From the IMG/VR virus record IMGVR_UViG_3300028581_000312, positions 1 through 20,067 of that record: a stretch of 20,067 nucleotides of DNA. One strand, written 5' to 3'. The translations under genes and the position numbers were made by a program. Each line of letters starts with the position of its first letter. The first letter of the stretch is position 1. The notes under the pieces were generated by a model. It saw nothing but the letters and a program-made list of their open reading frames with translations. It was not told the DNA's origin and ran no database searches. Source of the stretch: a virus. Positions 6,183-20,067 of the stretch are shown in pieces.

Positions 6183-7250
6183 TCAAATTTCATTTGAATA
6201 TTTTTCTTTAATTATTTTTATTGATTCATTTAATTTTTCTTTTCTAACAACCCAAAATTTATCTTTTTTTCCTCTCCCTATTACTCTTAAATTTCTAACT
6301 GCGTTTTTTATATTACCTCTTGTATATTTGAAATATTCAGCACATTTTGTTGTGTTTTTAAATTCCATGATAACTTCAAAATTTTTATCTAAAAGAAGAA
6401 TAGGTATAGATAGACAATCAGATATTTTATTTCTAAATTCTTCACTTTTTCTGGATTTTTGAAATTTTTCTGAATTTATCATATTCAATCTCATTTTTTC
6501 TTTTTGTTCTTCAGTTCTATTAATTTTTTTACCAAACATTCCATTTTTATTACCGGAATTAGCTTCAGATATTTTATTTTTTGTTTCATCTGAACAATGT
6601 TTTCCATAATTCGGATGATTAATTCCTTTTACTTTATCACTAATTTTCTTTTTTGTTTCATCACTTCTAAAAGTACCAAATAAGGGATGTTCCTTTCCAA
6701 TTCGTTTACCTTTTCTATTTTCACTTATTCTTTTTTTTGTTTCGATAGATAATTTTTTATTCAATAAAGGTGAAATATGATATTTATAATATTCTTTCAA
6801 TTTATCAGATAATATATTTTTATCATAATCTGTCATCTTTTTTCCATAATTATAATTTTTTTCACCCATACACTTACCTTTTCTATTATCAGATATTTTC
6901 TTTTTTGTTTCTTCAGATAATTTATAACCACCACCATTTACCATTCCACCTATTATAGTATTTTTCAAATCAAATTCTTTATTATATTTATATTTCAAAA
7001 TCCAAAATATCTCTCTTTCTTCTAAATTTTCACATTCTTCAATTAATATAATTTTTATATTTTTTTCTTCATTTAATAAAATTAATTTTTTTATCCATCT
7101 ATCTTTTTTTGTTAAAAAATTATTTTTAATAATCTTAGATTTAGTTCCTGAAATGTGACTAGATAATCTTTTTTTTGGTACATTTTTTGTTAATCCAATA
7201 TATTCAATTCTTTTTGTAATTGGGCATTCTAATCCATAAATATATCCCAT
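6183..7250 (-). CDS. GIY-YIG homing endonuclease with NUMOD3 repeats (355 aa)
   Basis: A free-standing homing endonuclease that would spread its own gene by cutting alleles lacking it. The GIY-YIG nuclease domain is residues 1-95: YIYGL and YIGLT strands, Arg28 in KKRLSSH and Glu80 in LEEREIFW are the expected catalytic residues. Residues about 112-250 carry several NUMOD3 DNA-contact repeats (forms of ETKKKISDNRKGK followed by a G-rich turn such as NYNYGKK). Residues about 285-335 resemble a NUMOD1-type helix-turn-helix (FKNTTKCAEYF). It is Lys-rich and lies opposite in direction to both neighbours. Its TGA starts at the base after the RNA ligase stop. A variant TTTATATATA motif lies 16 nt before the ATG. 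The locus it targets may be the ligase gene or its flank; that is inference. Confidence 0.92.
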   Translation of the reverse strand: MGYIYGLECPITKRIEYIGLTKNVPKKRLSSHISGTKSKIIKNNFLTKKDRWIKKLILLNEEKNIKIILIEECENLEEREIFWILKYKYNKEFDLKNTIIGGMVNGGGYKLSEETKKKISDNRKGKCMGEKNYNYGKKMTDYDKNILSDKLKEYYKYHISPLLNKKLSIETKKRISENRKGKRIGKEHPLFGTFRSDETKKKISDKVKGINHPNYGKHCSDETKNKISEANSGNKNGMFGKKINRTEEQKEKMRLNMINSEKFQKSRKSEEFRNKISDCLSIPILLLDKNFEVIMEFKNTTKCAEYFKYTRGNIKNAVRNLRVIGRGKKDKFWVVRKEKLNESIKIIKEKYSNEI

Positions 7251-8324: not shown

Positions 8325-8552
8325 ATGATAAAAGATATTAAAATTATTTGTTCGAGGGTTGTTATTGATCCACAGGGTTATAGACAATTGGAAGTATCAT
8401 TAGATGAAGCTGATATTGATAATGTTTTAGAAAATTTAACAATTTCTGATATTTTATCATATTTCAATGAAAATGATATTTTAGATGAAATTGGTTCAGA
8501 AAAAGCACAAGAATATTTTGGTGAATATTTTGGTTTAATTGATGAAAGATGA
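8325..8552 (+). CDS. Small acidic hypothetical protein (75 aa)
   Basis: It starts MIKDIKIICSRVVIDPQGY and is strongly acidic after residue 25 (SLDEADIDNVLENL, DILDEIGSEKAQEYFGEYFG). It is probably mainly helical, with no signal or membrane segment. I do not recognise a named family. The leader upstream is AT-only sequence without a clear promoter; a palindromic A7T7 stretch at 8263-8276 may end the preceding transcript. The stop is followed after 3 nt by the first palindrome of the gene-free region. Confidence 0.75.
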   Translation: MIKDIKIICSRVVIDPQGYRQLEVSLDEADIDNVLENLTISDILSYFNENDILDEIGSEKAQEYFGEYFGLIDER

Positions 8553-8556
8553 ACTA

Positions 8557-8582
8557 CTACGACACTAAAGATGTCGTAGTTT
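8557..8582. repeat. Palindromic direct repeat, left copy
   Basis: A 26-bp sequence with perfect arms CTACGACA and TGTCGTAG around loop CTAAAGA, then TTT. It is identical to 8948-8973. Here the stem is 9 bp, because A8556 pairs with T8580. It starts 4 nt after the stop codon of the 75-aa gene. Confidence 0.9.
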
Positions 8583-8584
8583 CG

Positions 8585-8610
8585 GGATCAAAAATGATCC
8601 TTCTTTTTAA
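8585..8610 (+). terminator. Hairpin and T-rich tail after the 75-aa gene
   Basis: GGATCA (8585-8590), loop AAAA, TGATCC (8595-8600), then TTCTTTTTAA. Together with the palindrome just before it, this is a plausible rightward terminator. Confidence 0.6.
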
Positions 8611-8907
8611 ACGCTTCATAGCTTATGCCACAAGTGGTCTTATTTTTGCTCCACGTTCGTAATCGGCAGTTCCTGTCGATCGGTCTTAAAAAAACCGATA
8701 ATGTTGTTTATTGTTTTTGCATTGGCACATCCTGTCTTTCAAGGGGAGTCATAGCAGCATCGTTTTAACGATGTTAAAATTAAGTCATTAGTGCTTGGTT
8801 TTCGCTGACTACTTTTTTTATGATTTTACCTAGATTAATAAGTTGTTAATCTAGAACCATATAATCATTACATCAAAGAACTATTTAAAACTATTTCTAG
8901 TTAAATG

Positions 8908-8917
8908 TATATATTAA
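8908..8917 (-). promoter_or_regulatory. Late-type promoter motif with no gene behind it
   Basis: Minus-strand TTAATATATA followed by C, the same core as the sheath promoter. No ATG lies at the usual 16-24 nt, and no long minus-strand frame follows, so it would drive a non-coding transcript across 8553-8900. Confidence 0.5.
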
Positions 8918-8947
8918 ATTAAAAATATCATTTTTTGTCAAATTCAT

Positions 8948-8973
8948 CTACGACACTAAAGATGTCGTAGTTT
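8948..8973. repeat. Palindromic direct repeat, right copy
   Basis: Exact copy of 8557-8582. It is followed by TCTTTG, so on the plus strand it forms an 8-bp stem with a U-rich tail and can act as a terminator just before the 9007 gene. Confidence 0.9.
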
Positions 8974-9006
8974 TCTTTGACGGATCATTATAAAAATTAT
9001 AAAATT

Positions 9007-9968: not shown

Positions 9969-11975
9969 ATGGAAAACGATAACACCGCCCGAATTAAAGA
10001 ACTAGAAACTCTTTTGGATCAATGGAATTATTCTTACAGATTCGAAGGAAAACAGATTGTTCCCGATTCAGTTTATGATTCACATCTTGACGAATTAGCT
10101 GACTTAGACCCCGATAATAAAAGGGTTGTAAAAGTTGGTGAAACTCCCCCAGATGATGAACGTAAGGAAAACCTTCCTTTGATTATGGCTTCAATGAGTA
10201 AAGTTAAATCTTACGATGAATTAAAAGCGTGGATGATTAAAAAAGGAATTCCATTAAATACGATTCTTTGTATCACACCCAAATATGATGGTCTTTCCAT
10301 TCTTAATGATGTCAAGTTATCAAAAGCTTGGACAAGGGGTGACGGTTCTATCGGACAAAATTCAGATCCACATTTTAAAGATGTAATGGAAAAATATTCG
10401 AAAGATAAAATCGAATCATTTTTACTTTCATATCAATACGCACCATCAGTTTATACCACTGGTGAAGCTCTTATCACAAAAGATGTATTTCAGAAGAAAC
10501 ATTCCAAAACAGTATTGGGTGATATTGATGGATTTGATAACGGAAGAAATCGTGTAAGTGGTCTTTTCAATAAATATAAGAAAGAAAATAAACCAGCTTT
10601 CAATGATGTTGTGTATATGAGGTATGGTTTCTATTGTGGAATTGATATGGATAAGAGTACACAACTTGACATTCTCAATCAATATTTTAATTCACCTGAA
10701 GTTCCTTATATTCTTCAAACTGTTGACAATTTGAATACTGAATATTTAAGGGGTGTTTTTGATAATTGGAGTAAAATGTTTGAAATTGATGGTCTTATCA
10801 TCGAAGTAAATGATAAAAATCTTCGTAATTCAATTGAATCAGAACGTTCAACAAAAGATAACCCAGATGTTATGAATCCGGGTTACGCTAGAGCTTACAA
10901 AGCTTCATTTGAAGAAGTTAAAGAAACATCTGTTTTAGGATTAAAATTAGAAGTTTCTAAATTGGGATTTGTTATTCCAGTCGCTGAAGTTGAACCAGTT
11001 ATATTAGATGGTGCTGAAGTTACAAATGTTACTTGTAACAATGCTAAAATGATTTATGATTTAGGAATTGGAAAAGGTGCAATTATACGAGTAATGCGTA
11101 GTGGAATGGTAATTCCGTATCTTGTTGATGTTGTTAAAAAATCAGATGATTTTTATCTTTTCCCTTCAACTTGTCCAAGTTGTGGAACAATTCTTATTTG
11201 GAATGATACAAACACACATTTAATGTGTACAAATGATAATTGTACCGATAGAAAAATTAAACAAATTACATCATTCTTCGATATTCTTGATGTAAAAGGT
11301 GTAAGAGAAACAACATTCAGACAATTATACAATTCTGGTTATGATACAATTCAGAAAATTTTAGCAATGTCTATTGATGATTTCAAAAAATTAGAAAGAA
11401 TGGGTGATAGTAAAGCGTCAAATATTTATGATGCAATTCAATCTAAAATTCAAGGGATCACACTTTCAAAACTCCAACACGCTTCTGGTTTATTTACAGA
11501 TCCAACAAGTGGATTTAGTTTAGGTAGTAAAAAACTTGTTCTTTTGGAACATTTTACACAAAAACCATCAGTTTCACAAGTGATGAAAATAAAAGGGTTC
11601 TCGGATTCTTCTGCCCTTATTTATTGTAGTAATTATGATCGTTTTTTCGAATGGATTTCCACACTTCCAATTTCAATTAAAAAAGGTGAACCTTTTACAG
11701 CAACATCTTCTGAATTATTTGGTAAATCTTTTGTTTTTACCGGATTTAGAAATGAAGAACTTAAAAAAGAAATTGAAAAAATGGGTGGTAAAGTTTTAGA
11801 TAGTGTATCTAGAAATACTACTTATTTAGTAATGAAGAAAAAAGGTTCTGGAAGTTCAAAGGAAAATAAAGCTATCGAAATGGGTATTATAATATTAGAA
11901 ATAAAAGACTTGGAAGAATTAATATATACTGTTAAAAATAACGGTATAAATAATGCAAAAACAAACACAAAATGA
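9969..11975 (+). CDS. ligA: NAD-dependent DNA ligase
   Basis: It seals DNA nicks using NAD+, here presumably for phage replication and repair. At 668 aa it has the full bacterial LigA layout: domain Ia (about 5-60, YDSHLDEL), adenylation core with motif I KYDG (nucleophile Lys105), ATRGDG-like WTRGDGSIG (122-130), GEALI (165-169), EIDGLIIEV (272-280) and AYKASF (Lys311), an OB fold (about 320-395), a four-Cys zinc finger (C402, C405, C420, C425), helix-hairpin-helix repeats (430-555) and a BRCT domain (585-655). The OB segment has RSGMVIPYL where most LigA proteins have RAGDVIP. A host-like promoter box precedes it. Its last 23 nt overlap the next gene and carry that gene's late-type promoter a little upstream. 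Confidence 0.96.
   Translation: MENDNTARIKELETLLDQWNYSYRFEGKQIVPDSVYDSHLDELADLDPDNKRVVKVGETPPDDERKENLPLIMASMSKVKSYDELKAWMIKKGIPLNTILCITPKYDGLSILNDVKLSKAWTRGDGSIGQNSDPHFKDVMEKYSKDKIESFLLSYQYAPSVYTTGEALITKDVFQKKHSKTVLGDIDGFDNGRNRVSGLFNKYKKENKPAFNDVVYMRYGFYCGIDMDKSTQLDILNQYFNSPEVPYILQTVDNLNTEYLRGVFDNWSKMFEIDGLIIEVNDKNLRNSIESERSTKDNPDVMNPGYARAYKASFEEVKETSVLGLKLEVSKLGFVIPVAEVEPVILDGAEVTNVTCNNAKMIYDLGIGKGAIIRVMRSGMVIPYLVDVVKKSDDFYLFPSTCPSCGTILIWNDTNTHLMCTNDNCTDRKIKQITSFFDILDVKGVRETTFRQLYNSGYDTIQKILAMSIDDFKKLERMGDSKASNIYDAIQSKIQGITLSKLQHASGLFTDPTSGFSLGSKKLVLLEHFTQKPSVSQVMKIKGFSDSSALIYCSNYDRFFEWISTLPISIKKGEPFTATSSELFGKSFVFTGFRNEELKKEIEKMGGKVLDSVSRNTTYLVMKKKGSGSSKENKAIEMGIIILEIKDLEELIYTVKNNGINNAKTNTK
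11919..11928 (+). promoter_or_regulatory. Late-type promoter motif embedded in the ligase 3' end
   Basis: TTAATATATA followed by C, 24 nt before the ATG of the nuclease gene at 11953. It lies within ligase codons for Leu-Ile-Tyr-Thr, so the nuclease can be expressed apart from the ligase. Confidence 0.6.
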
Positions 11976-12837
11976 ATTTATTAAAAAATGTATTAAAATT
12001 CATGGTAATAAATACGATTATTCAAAAGTAGAATATAATGGAATAAAAGAAAAAATTAAAATTGTATGTTTCACACATGGAATATTCGAACAGTTACCGT
12101 ATAATCATTTACTTGGAAAGGGTTGTAATAAATGTAATCCTCAATTTGGTGAAAAAATAGGTGGTGATAAATTTATAGAAAGATCTAATAAAATACATGA
12201 TAATTTTTATGATTATTCATTAATAAAAAATTACAAAAATAATAGAACAAAAGTAAAAATAATTTGTCCTAAACATGGAATTTTTGAACAAGAACCAAGA
12301 CATCATTTAAGTGGTCAAAAATGTCCCACTTGTCAGGGTAATAAAAAATTAACAGATGATGATTTCATTAAACGTTCTAAAGATATTCATAAAAATAAAT
12401 ATGATTATAGTTTATCCAAAATAAATGGTACTCGCAGTAAAACAAAAATAATTTGTCCTAAACATGGTATTTTTATACAAATTGTAGATAGTCATTTAAG
12501 AGGTCACGGTTGTCCAAAGTGTAAAGATTCAAAAGGTGAAAAAATAATAGAATGGTATTTAATTAAAAATCAAATAGAATTCAAAAAACAAAAAATGTTT
12601 GATGATTGTAAAGACATAAGAAGATTAAAATTTGATTTCTATTTAGAAAAATATAATCTATGTATTGAATATGATGGTTTACAACATAGTAAAATTACTG
12701 AATGGGGTGAAAAAAAATTAAAAGACTCTATTAAAAAAGATACCATTAAAAATATTTTTTGTAAAAATAATAACATAAATTTATTAAGAATATCATATAA
12801 AGAAAATATAATTACAAAATTAAACGAATATTTTTAA
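11953..12837 (+). CDS. Homing-type endonuclease: three zinc-ribbon repeats plus Vsr/EDxHD-like nuclease domain (294 aa)
   Basis: Three copies of a roughly 55-residue DUF723-like module (8-61, 75-127, 138-190) each carry F-I-x2-x-x-x-IH, YDYS, C-x2-HGIF and a closing C-x2-C (C39/H42/C58/C61; C105/H108/C124/C127; C168/H171/C187/C190), so each can bind one zinc and read DNA. Residues 195-294 form a small PD-(D/E)xK/Vsr-like nuclease: GEKIIEWYL, LKFDFYL (Asp228), CIEYDGLQH (Glu239) and NNINLLRI. This design is seen in phage mobile nucleases. It overlaps the ligase end by 23 nt in another frame and has its own late-type promoter inside the ligase gene. It looks like a recent selfish arrival beside ligA; the target is not known. 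Confidence 0.85.
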   Translation: MQKQTQNEFIKKCIKIHGNKYDYSKVEYNGIKEKIKIVCFTHGIFEQLPYNHLLGKGCNKCNPQFGEKIGGDKFIERSNKIHDNFYDYSLIKNYKNNRTKVKIICPKHGIFEQEPRHHLSGQKCPTCQGNKKLTDDDFIKRSKDIHKNKYDYSLSKINGTRSKTKIICPKHGIFIQIVDSHLRGHGCPKCKDSKGEKIIEWYLIKNQIEFKKQKMFDDCKDIRRLKFDFYLEKYNLCIEYDGLQHSKITEWGEKKLKDSIKKDTIKNIFCKNNNINLLRISYKENIITKLNEYF

Positions 12838-15396: not shown

Positions 15397-16635
15397 ATGT
15401 TTAAATCAATTAAAATACAACTTTATCCAGACCAAAATCAATCCGATTATATTAATCGTTTATGTGGTTCGTATCGTAAAGTATATAATATGTGTTTAGA
15501 AAAGAAAATGAACACTTATAACACAGATAAAACAAATTTTGGTTTAAAAGAATTAGGTAATTATTTTCATCAATATTTAACTAAAACAAGTGAATTTTCT
15601 TATTTACAAGAACATAATACTAGAGTTTTAAAACAATCAATAATTGATTTGTTAGATGGTTATAAAAGATTTTTTATTAATAACAATGGTTTTCCTAAAT
15701 TTAAATCAAAACATGATGATAAACAATCTTGTAGATTTCCCTTAAATGTAATTTCAAAATTAAATAAATATTCAAATAATCAAATAACATTGGGTAAACA
15801 ACTCAAAAATTTAAAATTTAAATGTTCAAATAGAGATAAAAAATATTTATCTGATAATAAAGATAAAATTAGATCAGCAACATTAACCAGAACAAAATCT
15901 GATAAATATTTTCTTTCAATTTTAATTAAAAATATTATTCCATTAGAACAACCAAAACCAATTAATGATATTATCGGTATTGATGTTGGCATCAAAGATT
16001 TCATGGTTTGTTCAAATGATCAAGTATTTAATAATTTAAAATTAAGAAAAAATAATGAAAAGATATTAATCAAACTACAAAAACAATTATCTAAAAAAAT
16101 TGTCGGTAGTCATAACAGATATAAAGCTAAAATAAAACTAGCAAAAAAACACGAAAAATTAAATAACATAAAAATAAATTACATACATAATATTACAACC
16201 CACTTAGTTCGTGAGAACCAAACGATAGTTATTGAGGATTTGAATGTTAAAGGTATGTTAAAAAATCATCATCTAGCTAAATCAATTCGGGATTTAAGTA
16301 TTTATGAAACATTTAGACAATTAAAATATAAATGTGAATGGTATTCTAGGAATTTGATTGTGATAGATAGATGGTTTCCTTCAAGTAAATTATGTAATGT
16401 TTGTGGTTACAAATATGAACAATTAAAATTAAATGAACGTGAATGGATTTGTCCTAAATGTAATACAAAACATGATAGAGATAAAAATGCATCAATGAAC
16501 ATTGAAAATGAAGGAAAAAGAATTGTAGGGATGCGTTGTCCCGAAATTACGCTTGCGGACTATCCAACTATGGATGATTGTTCAGAAATGAATTTAAAAA
16601 GTAGTGATAGGATGAAACAAGAAATATTATTATGA
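15397..16635 (+). CDS. tnpB: TnpB RNA-guided nuclease (IS200/IS605 OrfB type), no TnpA
   Basis: TnpB cuts DNA chosen by an omega RNA made from the end of its own gene. The 412-aa protein has the N-terminal helix-turn-helix/wedge region (LYPDQNQSDYINRLCGSYRKVYN), RuvC-I GIDVGIKD (Asp196), RuvC-II IVIEDLN (Glu280), a zinc finger C333-x2-C336/C352-x2-C355, and RuvC-III HDRDKNAS (Asp360/Asp362). All catalytic residues are present, so it should be active. The tail (PTMDDCSEMNLKSSDRMKQE) matches the C-terminus typical of this family. No TnpA gene lies nearby and no clear IS ends were found, so it is either a lone tnpB, which many phages carry, or a domesticated one. It lies between terminators and a structural gene. 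Confidence 0.92.
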   Translation: MFKSIKIQLYPDQNQSDYINRLCGSYRKVYNMCLEKKMNTYNTDKTNFGLKELGNYFHQYLTKTSEFSYLQEHNTRVLKQSIIDLLDGYKRFFINNNGFPKFKSKHDDKQSCRFPLNVISKLNKYSNNQITLGKQLKNLKFKCSNRDKKYLSDNKDKIRSATLTRTKSDKYFLSILIKNIIPLEQPKPINDIIGIDVGIKDFMVCSNDQVFNNLKLRKNNEKILIKLQKQLSKKIVGSHNRYKAKIKLAKKHEKLNNIKINYIHNITTHLVRENQTIVIEDLNVKGMLKNHHLAKSIRDLSIYETFRQLKYKCEWYSRNLIVIDRWFPSSKLCNVCGYKYEQLKLNEREWICPKCNTKHDRDKNASMNIENEGKRIVGMRCPEITLADYPTMDDCSEMNLKSSDRMKQEILL

Positions 16636-16708: not shown

Positions 16709-18805
16709 ATGGCAGCAACACCAACAAAGAAATTAATAAATCTAGACCCAAATATTTTATTGGAATATGAATATAATTCTAATCATATAAGTGAGAATTA
16801 TCAAATATGGTCTGATCTTAGTAAAGGTACTAGAAACTTCGTCTCAACGTCTAATTACAACGATTTAAACCATAATTTATTTCAAGTAGATCCAGTCTTA
16901 AAGAAATATTCTAAAATTGATACTACAAAATTCAATTTCTTAAAAGTACAGAATTATTTCACCGCACCCGTAATGTATGATAGAGTCACCCTTTATCTTC
17001 CTACAAACTATGATTTCGATGTTTATGTTGGTATCTTTTTAAATATTTATGCTTACGATTATTACAATAAGAAAAAATATCCATTGAGTAATTTTTATTA
17101 TGACAAATCTGGTATTCAAATAATTAGTGGATCGACAGAATACGCAGAATATATGATAAATCTTGGTCAACCATTTCTTTACAACGGTAGAGAATGGGGA
17201 AAATATCTTCAATTTTATATACCATCCATAAATGATGTCAGTAATCAAAGAGATATAAATCCAAACGTAAATCAAGTTACACCGGATTCAATTAATGATC
17301 ACTTAACAAATGGATTGGGTTTAAGTTTAACTTGTCCGATATTTTTTGAATTTTCTTTCATCACATCAAAAGTAAATACGTTAGGTACAGATTATTATTT
17401 TTTAAGTGATACATCGAAATTATCAATATCAAGACAACCAGAATATCAAACTTTGGGTGTAACTATTTCAGAATCAAGTGATTGGGATTTCTTTGAAATT
17501 TACGGAACTTATCAAAATTCAAATGAAAATCTTGATAATTTTGTTAACGATTTAGAAAGTAAAGGGAAAAAAATAAATATTGAATATGTTGTTACTCTAT
17601 ATGAAGAAAATTTAATTAGTGGTTTTCCAACTACATTTTTAGTAACAGAAAATTTCTCACAAAAATTAGAATATCGTCCTATTATCAAATATTCAAATAC
17701 CACCGCTGCTATAGATGTAGAAATGAGGGTTATGGATTTAGTTGATAATAGTTCAATAAGTAGATTTGCATCAATTGGTTTAACAACAAATCTTTTGAAA
17801 TATGGTAAGAAATTAGCCAAATTAGATGTTTCAACTGTTACTAAACCAAAGATTTATAATTATAAAGCTGATAAAATAATGAATTTTGGAAATAATAATT
17901 ATAATCCAAATATAGCGAATTTAAATGTTGTTAAAGTACCATTCCCAATTTTAGTTAATAATTATAAAATATTAGCTAGTAATTATACTAATAGTCAAAG
18001 TGATTATAAACCGATGGGAACTTTAAATGTTATTGTTACACCATTTGATAATGTTCTTAAATTTCAAATAGGAAAACAAGATTCCCAAGATGCACCTATT
18101 TTACCTTATAGTTTAGGTAATGTCATGATGAATGGAAAATTAAATTTAGTTTTTAGATCAGATACAAAAACAATTGAAAAAGATATTTATTATCAAACAA
18201 ATGAAAATCAATTTGATTTGGGTATAGTAGTATTTAAAGTTAATCAAGAAGATATTCCTGTTTTAAAACAAATGTCAAAAGACAAATTTGATAATTTTTA
18301 TATTATTTTAAATGCAAATAAAACAAAAACTTTATTATATAGTGGTAAATTTAAAATATTCGAAAACATGAAATTTGTTGACATCAGAACAAATTTACCA
18401 TCAATAACAAGTACTGGAACAACTACAATTACAACAAACACCGGAACAACAGATAAAGTTGAAAATACACCACCACCACAATTCGATTCAAATGGTATCC
18501 CAATATTAAATCCTAATTCAAGAGGACAATTAGATTATTATAGAAATTTAACTGTTTATGCAAAACCAAATTTAAATAATAATGAATTAACTGCTTTGGG
18601 TAAAGAAATAAATACTGTAGGTGTTATTGCTTATTATCGAAATAATGCTTTTGTTGTTCAAAGAGTCAAAGTTGAAGATATCGAATTGTTAAAAAGAAAT
18701 AAAAGAATTGATTTCATTTTCGAAATGAAATTGGATTTTGGATGGAGAACTTCTAAAAATCTTTATGATTTTAATACAATGATTAATTTGAAAGACGGTA
18801 AATAA
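16709..18805 (+). CDS. Probable virion structural protein (698 aa)
   Basis: Large, soluble and rich in Asn, Tyr, Thr and Ile, with no catalytic motif, signal or membrane helix. It reads as a chain of beta domains (residues 1-560), then a Thr/Gly/Pro linker at about 565-600 (TSTGTTTITTNTGTTDKVENTPPPQFDSNGIP is its span) and a C-terminal domain of about 100 residues (LDYYRNLTVYAKPNLNNNEL onward). The AAT-rich codons match the sheath gene. A late-type promoter with the sheath spacing precedes it, and a collagen-like fibre gene lies downstream in the opposite direction. A baseplate or tail protein is the best guess from context. No family is recognised. Confidence 0.75.
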   Translation: MAATPTKKLINLDPNILLEYEYNSNHISENYQIWSDLSKGTRNFVSTSNYNDLNHNLFQVDPVLKKYSKIDTTKFNFLKVQNYFTAPVMYDRVTLYLPTNYDFDVYVGIFLNIYAYDYYNKKKYPLSNFYYDKSGIQIISGSTEYAEYMINLGQPFLYNGREWGKYLQFYIPSINDVSNQRDINPNVNQVTPDSINDHLTNGLGLSLTCPIFFEFSFITSKVNTLGTDYYFLSDTSKLSISRQPEYQTLGVTISESSDWDFFEIYGTYQNSNENLDNFVNDLESKGKKINIEYVVTLYEENLISGFPTTFLVTENFSQKLEYRPIIKYSNTTAAIDVEMRVMDLVDNSSISRFASIGLTTNLLKYGKKLAKLDVSTVTKPKIYNYKADKIMNFGNNNYNPNIANLNVVKVPFPILVNNYKILASNYTNSQSDYKPMGTLNVIVTPFDNVLKFQIGKQDSQDAPILPYSLGNVMMNGKLNLVFRSDTKTIEKDIYYQTNENQFDLGIVVFKVNQEDIPVLKQMSKDKFDNFYIILNANKTKTLLYSGKFKIFENMKFVDIRTNLPSITSTGTTTITTNTGTTDKVENTPPPQFDSNGIPILNPNSRGQLDYYRNLTVYAKPNLNNNELTALGKEINTVGVIAYYRNNAFVVQRVKVEDIELLKRNKRIDFIFEMKLDFGWRTSKNLYDFNTMINLKDGK

Positions 18806-18861: not shown

Positions 18862-20067
18862 TTATTTTATCTTATTTTCTAATTCTTTAATTTTGGATTT
18901 CAGATAACTTACTTCATAAATTAATAAATCTATGTATTTCACTTTATAATTTCCTTCAATTCCATAAACTAATTCCGGATTAATTTTTATCAAATCTTGA
19001 GCAATTATACCATATCTGATATCACCTAAATTAGATTTCATTTCGAATTTTTTGTATTCAATATCAATCAAATCAGATTTTATCTTTTCGATATTAGTTT
19101 TTAATGAAATATCAGAACCAAGTATGAAGTTAGCTGCTGTTAATTGATTACTAGAATCTCTATAAACTGCTGCATTTGTATTATAACCGTAAGTTGCCGC
19201 TGTATCTCTGAATAATAATTCATAATTACTTCCAATTCCCGGTAATACACCATTTGCTCCACTTGTACCCGATGTTCCTGATCCACCATTTGCTCCACTT
19301 GTACCCGATGTTCCTGATCCACCATTTGCTCCACTTGTACCCGATGTTCCATTACCACCATTAACACCCGATGTTCCATTACCACCATTTGCTCCACTTG
19401 TACCTGATGTACCATTACCACCATTTGCTCCCGATGTTCCAGATGTACCATTTACAGTTAAACCACTTGTTCCAGCTCCACCACTTGTTCCCGCCGTTCC
19501 GGAAGTTCCAGATGTATTGGATCCGACAGTACCACCAGCTGTTCCATTTGTACCAGATGTAGCGGATTGACCAGCAACACCATTTGTTCCTGATGTTCCT
19601 GATGTGAATGATATACCAGCACCACCACCATTTGTTCCTGATGTTCCTGATGTATATGATAAACCACCCACACCATTTGTTCCAGATGTTCCACTACCGC
19701 CGGATACACCAGTTGTCCCGGATGTACCAGAAATTCCACTTCCACCCGATACACCATTCGTTCCATTTGTGCCAGAAATCCCACTTGCACCTGCGATACC
19801 ATTTGTTCCTGATGTTCCTGATGTGTATGATATTCCAGCACCACCACCATTTGTTCCTGATGTTCCAGATGTATATGATAAACCACCCACACCATTTGTT
19901 CCAGATGTCCCAGCTGTTCCTGATGTTCCTGACAATCCACTTCCACCTGCAATACCATTTGTTCCCGATGTCCCAGCTGTTCCTGATGTTCCTGACAATC
20001 CACTCCCACCTGCAATACCATTTGTTCCTGATGTTCCTGATGTTACTGATTGACCAGCAACACCATT
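18862..20067 (-). CDS. Collagen-like tail fibre protein with C-terminal S74 self-cleaving chaperone (5' end outside window)
   Basis: The frame is open to the right edge, so the start lies outside; a TTG near 19998 is only an internal codon. More than 250 visible residues are collagen-like Gly-X-X triplets built from Thr, Ser, Ala and Asn (GTSGTSGANG, GTNGVGGLSYTSG), expected to trimerise as a stalk. The C-terminal 85 residues are a Peptidase_S74 intramolecular chaperone: SDISLKTNI supplies the Ser-Lys pair, then YKKFEMKSN, RYGIIAQDL, VKYIDLLIYEVSYLKSKIKELENKI, the last forming a coiled coil. In this family the chaperone trims itself off just before that Ser after folding, here near 19116. It points against the 698-aa gene and shares its terminator. 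Receptor binding is probable. Confidence 0.9.
   Translation of the reverse strand, partial: NGVAGQSVTSGTSGTNGIAGGSGLSGTSGTAGTSGTNGIAGGSGLSGTSGTAGTSGTNGVGGLSYTSGTSGTNGGGAGISYTSGTSGTNGIAGASGISGTNGTNGVSGGSGISGTSGTTGVSGGSGTSGTNGVGGLSYTSGTSGTNGGGAGISFTSGTSGTNGVAGQSATSGTNGTAGGTVGSNTSGTSGTAGTSGGAGTSGLTVNGTSGTSGANGGNGTSGTSGANGGNGTSGVNGGNGTSGTSGANGGSGTSGTSGANGGSGTSGTSGANGVLPGIGSNYELLFRDTAATYGYNTNAAVYRDSSNQLTAANFILGSDISLKTNIEKIKSDLIDIEYKKFEMKSNLGDIRYGIIAQDLIKINPELVYGIEGNYKVKYIDLLIYEVSYLKSKIKELENKIK
19255..19362 (-). repeat. 36-bp tandem repeats in the fibre gene
   Basis: Two exact 36-bp units (19255-19290, 19291-19326) and a diverged third, coding for GTSGTSGANGGS-type triplets. Confidence 0.85.
19578..19908 (-). 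repeat. Long duplicated block in the fibre gene
   Basis: About 112 bp at 19578-19689 is repeated with few changes at 19797-19908, a shift of 219 bp (73 codons). It encodes the recurring GGLSYTSGTSGTNGGGAGIS segment. Confidence 0.8.
19909..20034 (-). repeat. 63-bp tandem repeat in the fibre gene
   Basis: Two near-identical 63-bp units (19909-19971, 19972-20034), 21 codons each, encoding GIAGGSGLSGTSGTAGTSGTN-like triplets. Confidence 0.8.

Follow-up and report, generated by a model that had tools for sequence, protein, structure and literature searches.

The window, a 20,067-nucleotide stretch of viral DNA (IMG/VR record IMGVR_UViG_3300028581_000312), contains a gene-free interval of about 420 bp, first proposed at 8553-8976. 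The ORF list indeed has no reading frame of at least 50 aa inside it. Alignment of copies from other contigs extends it to a wider element of about 440 bp (~8549-8989) with TTTAT beside it at 8990-8994, and its informative strand is the minus strand. On its left lies a 75-aa ORF whose TGA stop overlaps the terminal ATGAA of the element. A complete TnpB is encoded further along the window (15397-16635, plus strand). Elsewhere, proteins with NUMOD3 (6183-7250, minus strand; GIY-YIG-like) and DUF723/DUF4379 (11953-12837, plus strand) are probable homing endonucleases, and the region of the phage is rich in homing-type elements. A collagen-like protein with SGTSGTNG repeats, whose tail resembles a fibre chaperone domain, occupies 18862-20067 (minus strand). 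The protein at 16709-18805 (plus strand) has no Pfam or PHROG match and shares 57.5% identity with a protein of the 735-kb uncultured phage LR756501; by sequence comparison, the phage is a relative of very large phages. No similar DNA was found among named phage records at E 1e-5.

The interval differs from its surroundings in composition, as the original prediction had stated. G+C amounts to 38% in the core (8584-8800) and 40% over 8549-8690, compared with 28-29% in each adjoining 500 bp, and the core value is attained by just 0.5% of equally sized windows when the G+C-rich collagen-like gene at the window's end is mostly left out of the background. Both strands are predicted to fold stably (z = -5.2 for the plus strand and -4.2 for the minus strand), with no shuffled sequence equally stable. 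The two palindromic repeats described earlier, 8557-8582 and 8948-8973, are identical over 26 nt, the hairpin proper being 23 nt with an 8-bp stem and a 7-nt loop. With up to three mismatches allowed, this 23-mer occurs twice in the window and 0.00 times in 100 shuffles, and exact matches are present in ten other IMG/VR contigs. Several of the additional internal hairpins also prove real and conserved in the alignment consensus. A comparison with Rfam, which had been suggested as a check, agrees that no known RNA family is present: nothing reaches the gathering thresholds, a permissive search returns chance-level matches only, and the window contains no tRNA or tmRNA.

Read on the minus strand from 8989 to 8549, the element comprises an LE hairpin, a phage promoter motif, a boxA-like leader, a 5' RNA domain, an omegaRNA-type 3' domain and an RE hairpin ending in TTCAT, with the TTTAT target motif lying outside LE (Table 1).

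Table 1. Features of the element and its immediate flanks, in window coordinates
Feature	Positions	Strand	Basis
Whole element, TnpB-less IS200/IS605-type	8549..8989	-	Copies aligned across many contexts; runs from LE (8989 side) to RE (8549 side)
Target-site / presumed TAM motif TTTAT, outside LE	8990..8994	-	LE junctions of the family
LE hairpin, CTACGACA stem	8948..8970	-	Inside an outer GTCAAA/TTTGAC pairing, 8937-8942 with 8976-8981
Promoter motif TTAATATATA	8908..8917	-	7 copies in the window vs 0.67 expected
Conserved 5' RNA domain (boxA-like leader, stem P2, TGGTTC...GGTAAAATCA motif)	8809..8881	-	Alignment A2, model R1
boxA-like leader GTTCTTTGAT	8872..8881	-	GTTCTTTGA invariant in 11/11 solo RNAs aligned
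3' omegaRNA/reRNA-type domain, homologous to tnpB 3' end + RE	8549..8690	-	Alignment A1, model R2
omegaRNA helix 1 (ATCG-A-CAG-GAA-CTG-C-CGAT)	8662..8680	-	A1: 8 pairs, 4 changed on both sides
omegaRNA helix 3 (GACCACTTGTGGC)	8627..8639	-	A1: both sides changed in 3/5 pairs
omegaRNA helix 4 (GGATCATTTTTGATCC)	8585..8600	-	A1: 5 pairs, 100% paired
RE hairpin; encodes TnpB C-terminus ETTTSLVS in intact relatives	8557..8579	-	A1 helix 5
RE terminal cleavage-site-like TTCAT, guide GAAA at 8580-8583	8549..8553	-	RE junctions
Presumed guide CTTTCATCAATTAAACCAAA, first 16-20 nt of flanking DNA	8529..8548	-	By analogy with the ISDra2 reRNA

The two ends can be told apart by comparison with relatives that have kept a gene. 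In L003 and L005, the 23-nt hairpin is the end of an intact tnpB and encodes the last residues of the protein, ETTTSLVS, and its stop. On its minus strand, the window spells out the same residues at each hairpin, and no frame stays open from one to the other, which makes the hairpin at 8557 the RE and the one at 8948 the LE. Intact tnpB genes with the same ends are found in L003, L005, L044, L050, L053 and L074. In these relatives, as in the window, the hairpins form a direct repeat in the same orientation, and there are no terminal inverted repeats.

Junctions from the wider family delimit the element. All 21 distinct RE junctions share GAA, the hairpin and AGTTCAT and have no similarity beyond; as the search was anchored on TAGTTCAT, the informative parts are the GAA foot and the dissimilarity past RE. 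At the LE side, GTCAAAG(A)AAA plus the hairpin is common to 15 family members, and TTTAT(A) precedes it in 14 of the 15, with TTTTTAAAA in its place in the exception. The outer arms GTCAAA/TTTGAC can be read directly in the window sequence. A 16th row of the LE table, from L076, was a chance match without family features and was discarded. With TTTAT(A) at 14/15 LE junctions and nothing common beyond RE, the junctions indicate insertion 3' of a fixed short target without target duplication. The RE boundary is sharp after TTCAT, and the LE boundary lies just past TTTAT(A), uncertain by 1-3 nt. Frame restoration in interrupted genes fits a cut after TTTAT in L052, with other offsets needed in L013 and L060; L060 seems to be without part of the host gene, so frame restoration fixes no single boundary. 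Some copies have degenerate ends. Very short LE-RE fusions with the same terminal TTCAT occur in L069 (8256-8305, ~50 bp), L076/L077 and L071 and are apparently minimal, ends-only elements.

In IS608, the insertion site is recognized through a tetranucleotide at the hairpin's 5' foot (PMC7290912). Here, the LE foot AAAA is complementary to the TTT of TTTAT and the RE foot GAAA to the TTC of TTCAT; the two sites differ by one base (T vs C), and the feet correspondingly by one base (A vs G). These complementarities fit feet that would guide the cleavage sites by pairing, in the IS200/IS605 manner. By analogy with ISDra2, whose TAM and target is TTGAT (PMC8612924), TTTAT would be the TAM of the TnpB. 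The earlier suggestion of a transposase-less, IS200/IS605-like element is thus upheld: its ends are LE and RE, the RE hairpin corresponds to the last tnpB codons in relatives, and the ends, target motif and guide/cleavage pairing all fit the family.

The RE-side 142 nt of the element align with tnpB 3' ends plus RE from G002, L053, L072 and L074 (alignment A1). The consensus contains 37 pairs, 12 of them changed on both sides. Pairing holds in 98% of cells, falling to 27-41% once partners are slid by 1-3 columns, and the covariation score of 0.273 (0.115 in shuffles) is reached by 0 of 500 shuffles. Model R2 matches the tnpB 3' end in G002, G012 and G015. The reRNA/omegaRNA of ISDra2 consists of ~150 nt from the tnpB 3' end and RE, with the last ~16 nt taken from the flank (PMC8612924), and the 3' domain is, in position and make-up, a putative RNA of this kind. 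Among tnpB-less copies of the window's type alone (alignment A3), 12 of 57 pairs have changed on both sides. The peptide MKRLKRRIIFDPETTTSLVS (followed by a stop) can be read from the window copy, but L049 and L060 do not preserve it, owing to a frameshift or to changes, so it is the RNA, not the peptide, that is kept. The RNA is also kept in three copies without a usable LE hairpin. A candidate long-range pairing between the boxA-like leader and the 3' domain is supported mainly by invariant positions and is not put forward.

Upstream of this domain, the element carries what would be its own start signals. The other six copies of TTAATATATA in the window stand 16-34 nt upstream of a same-strand ATG; the one at 8917-8908 (minus strand) is the sole copy with no ORF after it, and it points at the RNA of the element. 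The leader that follows resembles boxA, whose E. coli consensus is GYTCTTTAANA (PMC5725501), and a GYTCTTTRA-type sequence thereby opens the predicted untranslated transcript. Two phage tmRNA genes (L058 1543-1913 and L067 5393-5788, both minus strand) are directly preceded by the same promoter motif and GTTCTTTGAT. In bacterial genomes, GTTCTTTGACATATTG lies 52-301 nt before 23S rRNA at 38 of 121 matches, mostly in Bacteroidota. From the boxA likeness, the shared tmRNA leader and the position before 23S rRNA, we infer that GTTCTTTGAT may be an antitermination signal for long untranslated RNAs. The occurrence of the leader before phage tmRNA suggests a general protection of such RNAs in these phages. 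The string GTTCTTTGACATATTGGTTTAC... also recurs away from rRNA in Bacteroidales-type genomes (L217, L224, L237, L242, L259, L271, L293 and L323).

Besides the leader, the 5' RNA domain contains a strongly covarying stem and the motif TGGTTC...AGRTAAAAYCA. In alignment A2, 6 of the 14 pairs have changed on both sides; the covariation score of 0.483 compares with 0.179 for shuffles, 0/500 of which attain it. For the outer helix, two alternative registers fit about equally well. Covariation among homologues, proposed earlier as a check on a structured RNA, is therefore present in both RNA domains. The interior is a covarying RNA, part of it homologous to the tnpB 3' end plus RE, and the two original guesses, a structured RNA and a transposase-less element, hold together on the minus strand.

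Model R1 locates 12 occurrences of the 5' domain in 11 phage records, its remaining matches being no better than E = 0.06; a pattern search gave mostly chance matches, and only those with GTTCTTTGA upstream were used. A tnpB gene follows the domain in none of the eleven distinct copies read. Most copies join it to the omegaRNA type of the window. In L008, L132 and L136 it is joined to a second omegaRNA type, which is common to the tnpB of L005 and L073, and in L083 and L093 to unrelated 3' parts. These combinations with different 3' parts mark the 5' domain as a module of its own. Because it is recurrent, was seen before no tnpB and occurs with more than one omegaRNA type, the whole looks like a dedicated guide-RNA-only element rather than the product of random deletion. 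At L083 11011-11081 (minus strand), the 5' domain adjoins a tRNA-like sequence and an unrelated 3' part, without an RE hairpin, possibly representing a different RNA with the same leader. Models R1 and R2 gave no convincing match in four complete huge-phage records (best W03, E = 0.04, 19.6 bits).

A 98%-identical copy of the element is present in two other phage contigs, L013/L014 (records G001 and G005), with different flanks on both sides. It has lost the LE hairpin (29 nt), and one base pair of its RE hairpin has changed on both sides in a compensatory manner (G-C to T-A), with few other differences from the window. Copies between different flanks show movement of the element. When the sequences flanking the L013 insertion are joined, a frame of 182-183 codons stays open; the same operation on the tnpB element in L052 yields one of 108 codons. 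Several contigs end inside copies, which is typical of repeats in assemblies. The original prediction had also suggested a search for phages with an empty site; none was found through relatives of the right-hand and left-hand genes or a PHROG match of the joined ORF, through the corresponding comparisons (relatives and PHROGs) for the ORFs joined in L013 and L052, or through flank-against-flank BLAST and guide searches. An apparent empty site for the L005 guide, in the unrelated contig L095, was a chance match. The RE pattern has no exact match in 84,980 bacterial and archaeal species genomes, and hence no host-borne version was found. A ~75-nt fragment of the omegaRNA domain lies near the end of a glycosyltransferase-like coding sequence in L051 (~640-720).

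The TnpB of the window (PF01385, PF07282 and PF12323) has intact RuvC and zinc-finger motifs. Its gene has other ends, lacking the hairpin ends of the element's family, and matches the omegaRNA model marginally (16423-16585, E = 0.096), so that no cognate partner is demonstrated in the same genome. The tnpB genes of G005 and G011 give weaker matches to the same model. Among relatives sharing the element's kind of 3' end, the TnpBs retain RuvC D/E/D and zinc-finger motifs intact, the E motif of L005 being missed by the pattern used. No single record was found to combine a solo element with a tnpB of the same close 3'-end type, the records being mostly fragments, and Y1 TnpA (PF01797) is absent from the 25 records searched, most of which are also fragments.

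Taken as a whole, the element appears to make its own guide RNA for TnpB and may spread by borrowing TnpB from elsewhere. It probably represents a non-autonomous, IS200/IS605-type element resident in a large phage, one that lost tnpA and tnpB, kept both recognition ends and a complete guide-RNA gene, and is spread or retained via TnpB in trans. Among known kinds, PATE or MITE-like derivatives of IS605 are closest. A broader reading, advanced tentatively and stopping short of probable, is that large phages harbor distinct guide-RNA-only homing elements: these would encode no protein, carry their own promoter, antiterminator and 5' domain, be paired with the omegaRNA type of the available TnpB lineage and, as parasites of TnpB transposons, propagate by programming TnpB in trans.

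The strongest alternative is a plain PATE- or MITE-like relic, in which an internal deletion left the ends and the tnpB 3' tail, the RNA features are functionless leftovers, and any movement is due to TnpA in trans. A Halanaerobium PATE-like sequence of the same make-up is known (28 nt of LE, the last 58 nt of tnpB and RE; PMC7290912), minimal LE-RE fusions are also present in L069 and L076/L077, and the remnant tnpB frames of the window element are broken. Decay of this kind is nevertheless unlikely given the 5' domain and boxA-like leader, which recur at 12 places in 11 records and were seen before no tnpB. That domain covaries while being combined with different omegaRNA types, and solo copies retain their pairing through compensatory changes.

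An improbable alternative is a regulatory guide RNA, with a nuclease-dead, TldR-like TnpB or antisense pairing repressing the gene whose sequence follows RE. Phage-encoded TldR proteins with guide RNAs are known (PMC13418256), the presumed guide of the window is antisense to the end of the 75-aa gene, and three seemingly immobile copies keep the RNA. The intact RuvC motifs of the TnpBs examined (apart from the missed L005 E motif) nonetheless make cutting likelier than repression, and the guides differ in every copy, as expected of insertion-site guides and not of a fixed target.

Less probable still is a free-standing structured phage RNA of other function, comparable to GOLLD, ROOL or tmRNA, that was captured between IS605 ends. 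The L083 arrangement, in which the 5' domain lacks an RE hairpin and stands beside a tRNA-like sequence with an unrelated 3' part, and the leader shared with phage tmRNA would be in keeping with this, but the 3' domain of the window copy is homologous to tnpB 3' ends and Rfam holds no match. That the hairpins are just bidirectional terminators or repeats at the ends of two phage genes has almost nothing to recommend it, since the terminator-like stems with T runs on the plus strand at 8948 and 8584 leave the sharp ends, target motif, covariation, tnpB homology and foreign-flank copies all unexplained.

For an element that supplies a guide RNA to TnpB in trans, we infer the following course of transcription, homing and use of trans-supplied TnpB and TnpA. 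On the evidence of sequence, a Y1 transposase would recognize the LE and RE hairpins with their AAAA or GAAA feet, and the phage promoter motif inside LE would drive a minus-strand RNA starting near 8900. This RNA would consist of the boxA-like leader, the 5' domain and the omegaRNA-type 3' domain; because it would end in the RE hairpin, its 3' end would run into flanking DNA. The leader would shield the untranslated RNA from Rho-dependent termination. TnpB from elsewhere in the same phage, or from a co-infecting phage, could then bind the RNA, and the complex would cut the element-free site in other phage genomes, namely TTTAT followed by CTTTCATCAATTAAAC, which is the same site without the element. 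Repair from an element-bearing copy would insert the element, allowing it to spread or be retained without encoding a protein, and mobilization to new sites would require TnpA in trans. Repair-based restoration and spread has been proposed for ISDra2 (PMC8612924), and gene drive by IS200/605 elements has been shown in plasmids (PMC11870625).

Like ISDra2, IS608 and other IS200/IS605 members, the element has subterminal hairpins of the same sequence at both ends without terminal inverted repeats, a tetranucleotide-type guide at the 5' foot, a fixed short target 5' of LE and an omegaRNA drawn from the tnpB 3' end and RE. It differs in having a promoter, a boxA-like leader and a 5' RNA domain in place of tnpA and tnpB, and its TTTAT target and terminal TTCAT depart from the TTGAT of ISDra2. 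With the PATEs of Halanaerobium and Haloquadratum it shares the form of an ends-only IS605 derivative, made of an LE hairpin, a tnpB tail and RE (PMC7290912). Unlike them, it adds ~100-200 nt of RNA that is conserved and covaries, has a promoter motif and a leader of its own, and recurs in many phages in combination with different omegaRNAs. The RNA resembles TnpB reRNA/omegaRNA in coming from a tnpB 3' end plus RE with a presumed guide from the flank, and in its homology to phage tnpB 3' ends, but it has no adjoining tnpB and is predicted to use its own promoter and to act in trans. Its leader shares the GTTCTTTGA core with the boxA of rRNA operons, the same string standing before Bacteroidota 23S rRNA and phage tmRNA; here, in contrast, the putative NusB/NusE site leads the RNA of a mobile element.

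In the openly searchable literature that was covered, no description of a guide-RNA-only class of elements was found. TnpB systems are usually viewed as one transposon encoding both nuclease and guide. If the reading is true, guide and nuclease have been separated in phages, and a gene-less element of 440 bp could home with the nuclease of another element, as a natural counterpart of a split gene drive. It would also offer a simple explanation of conserved non-coding blocks in large phage genomes, and the use of several guides per nuclease would be a possible step from TnpB towards CRISPR-like systems.
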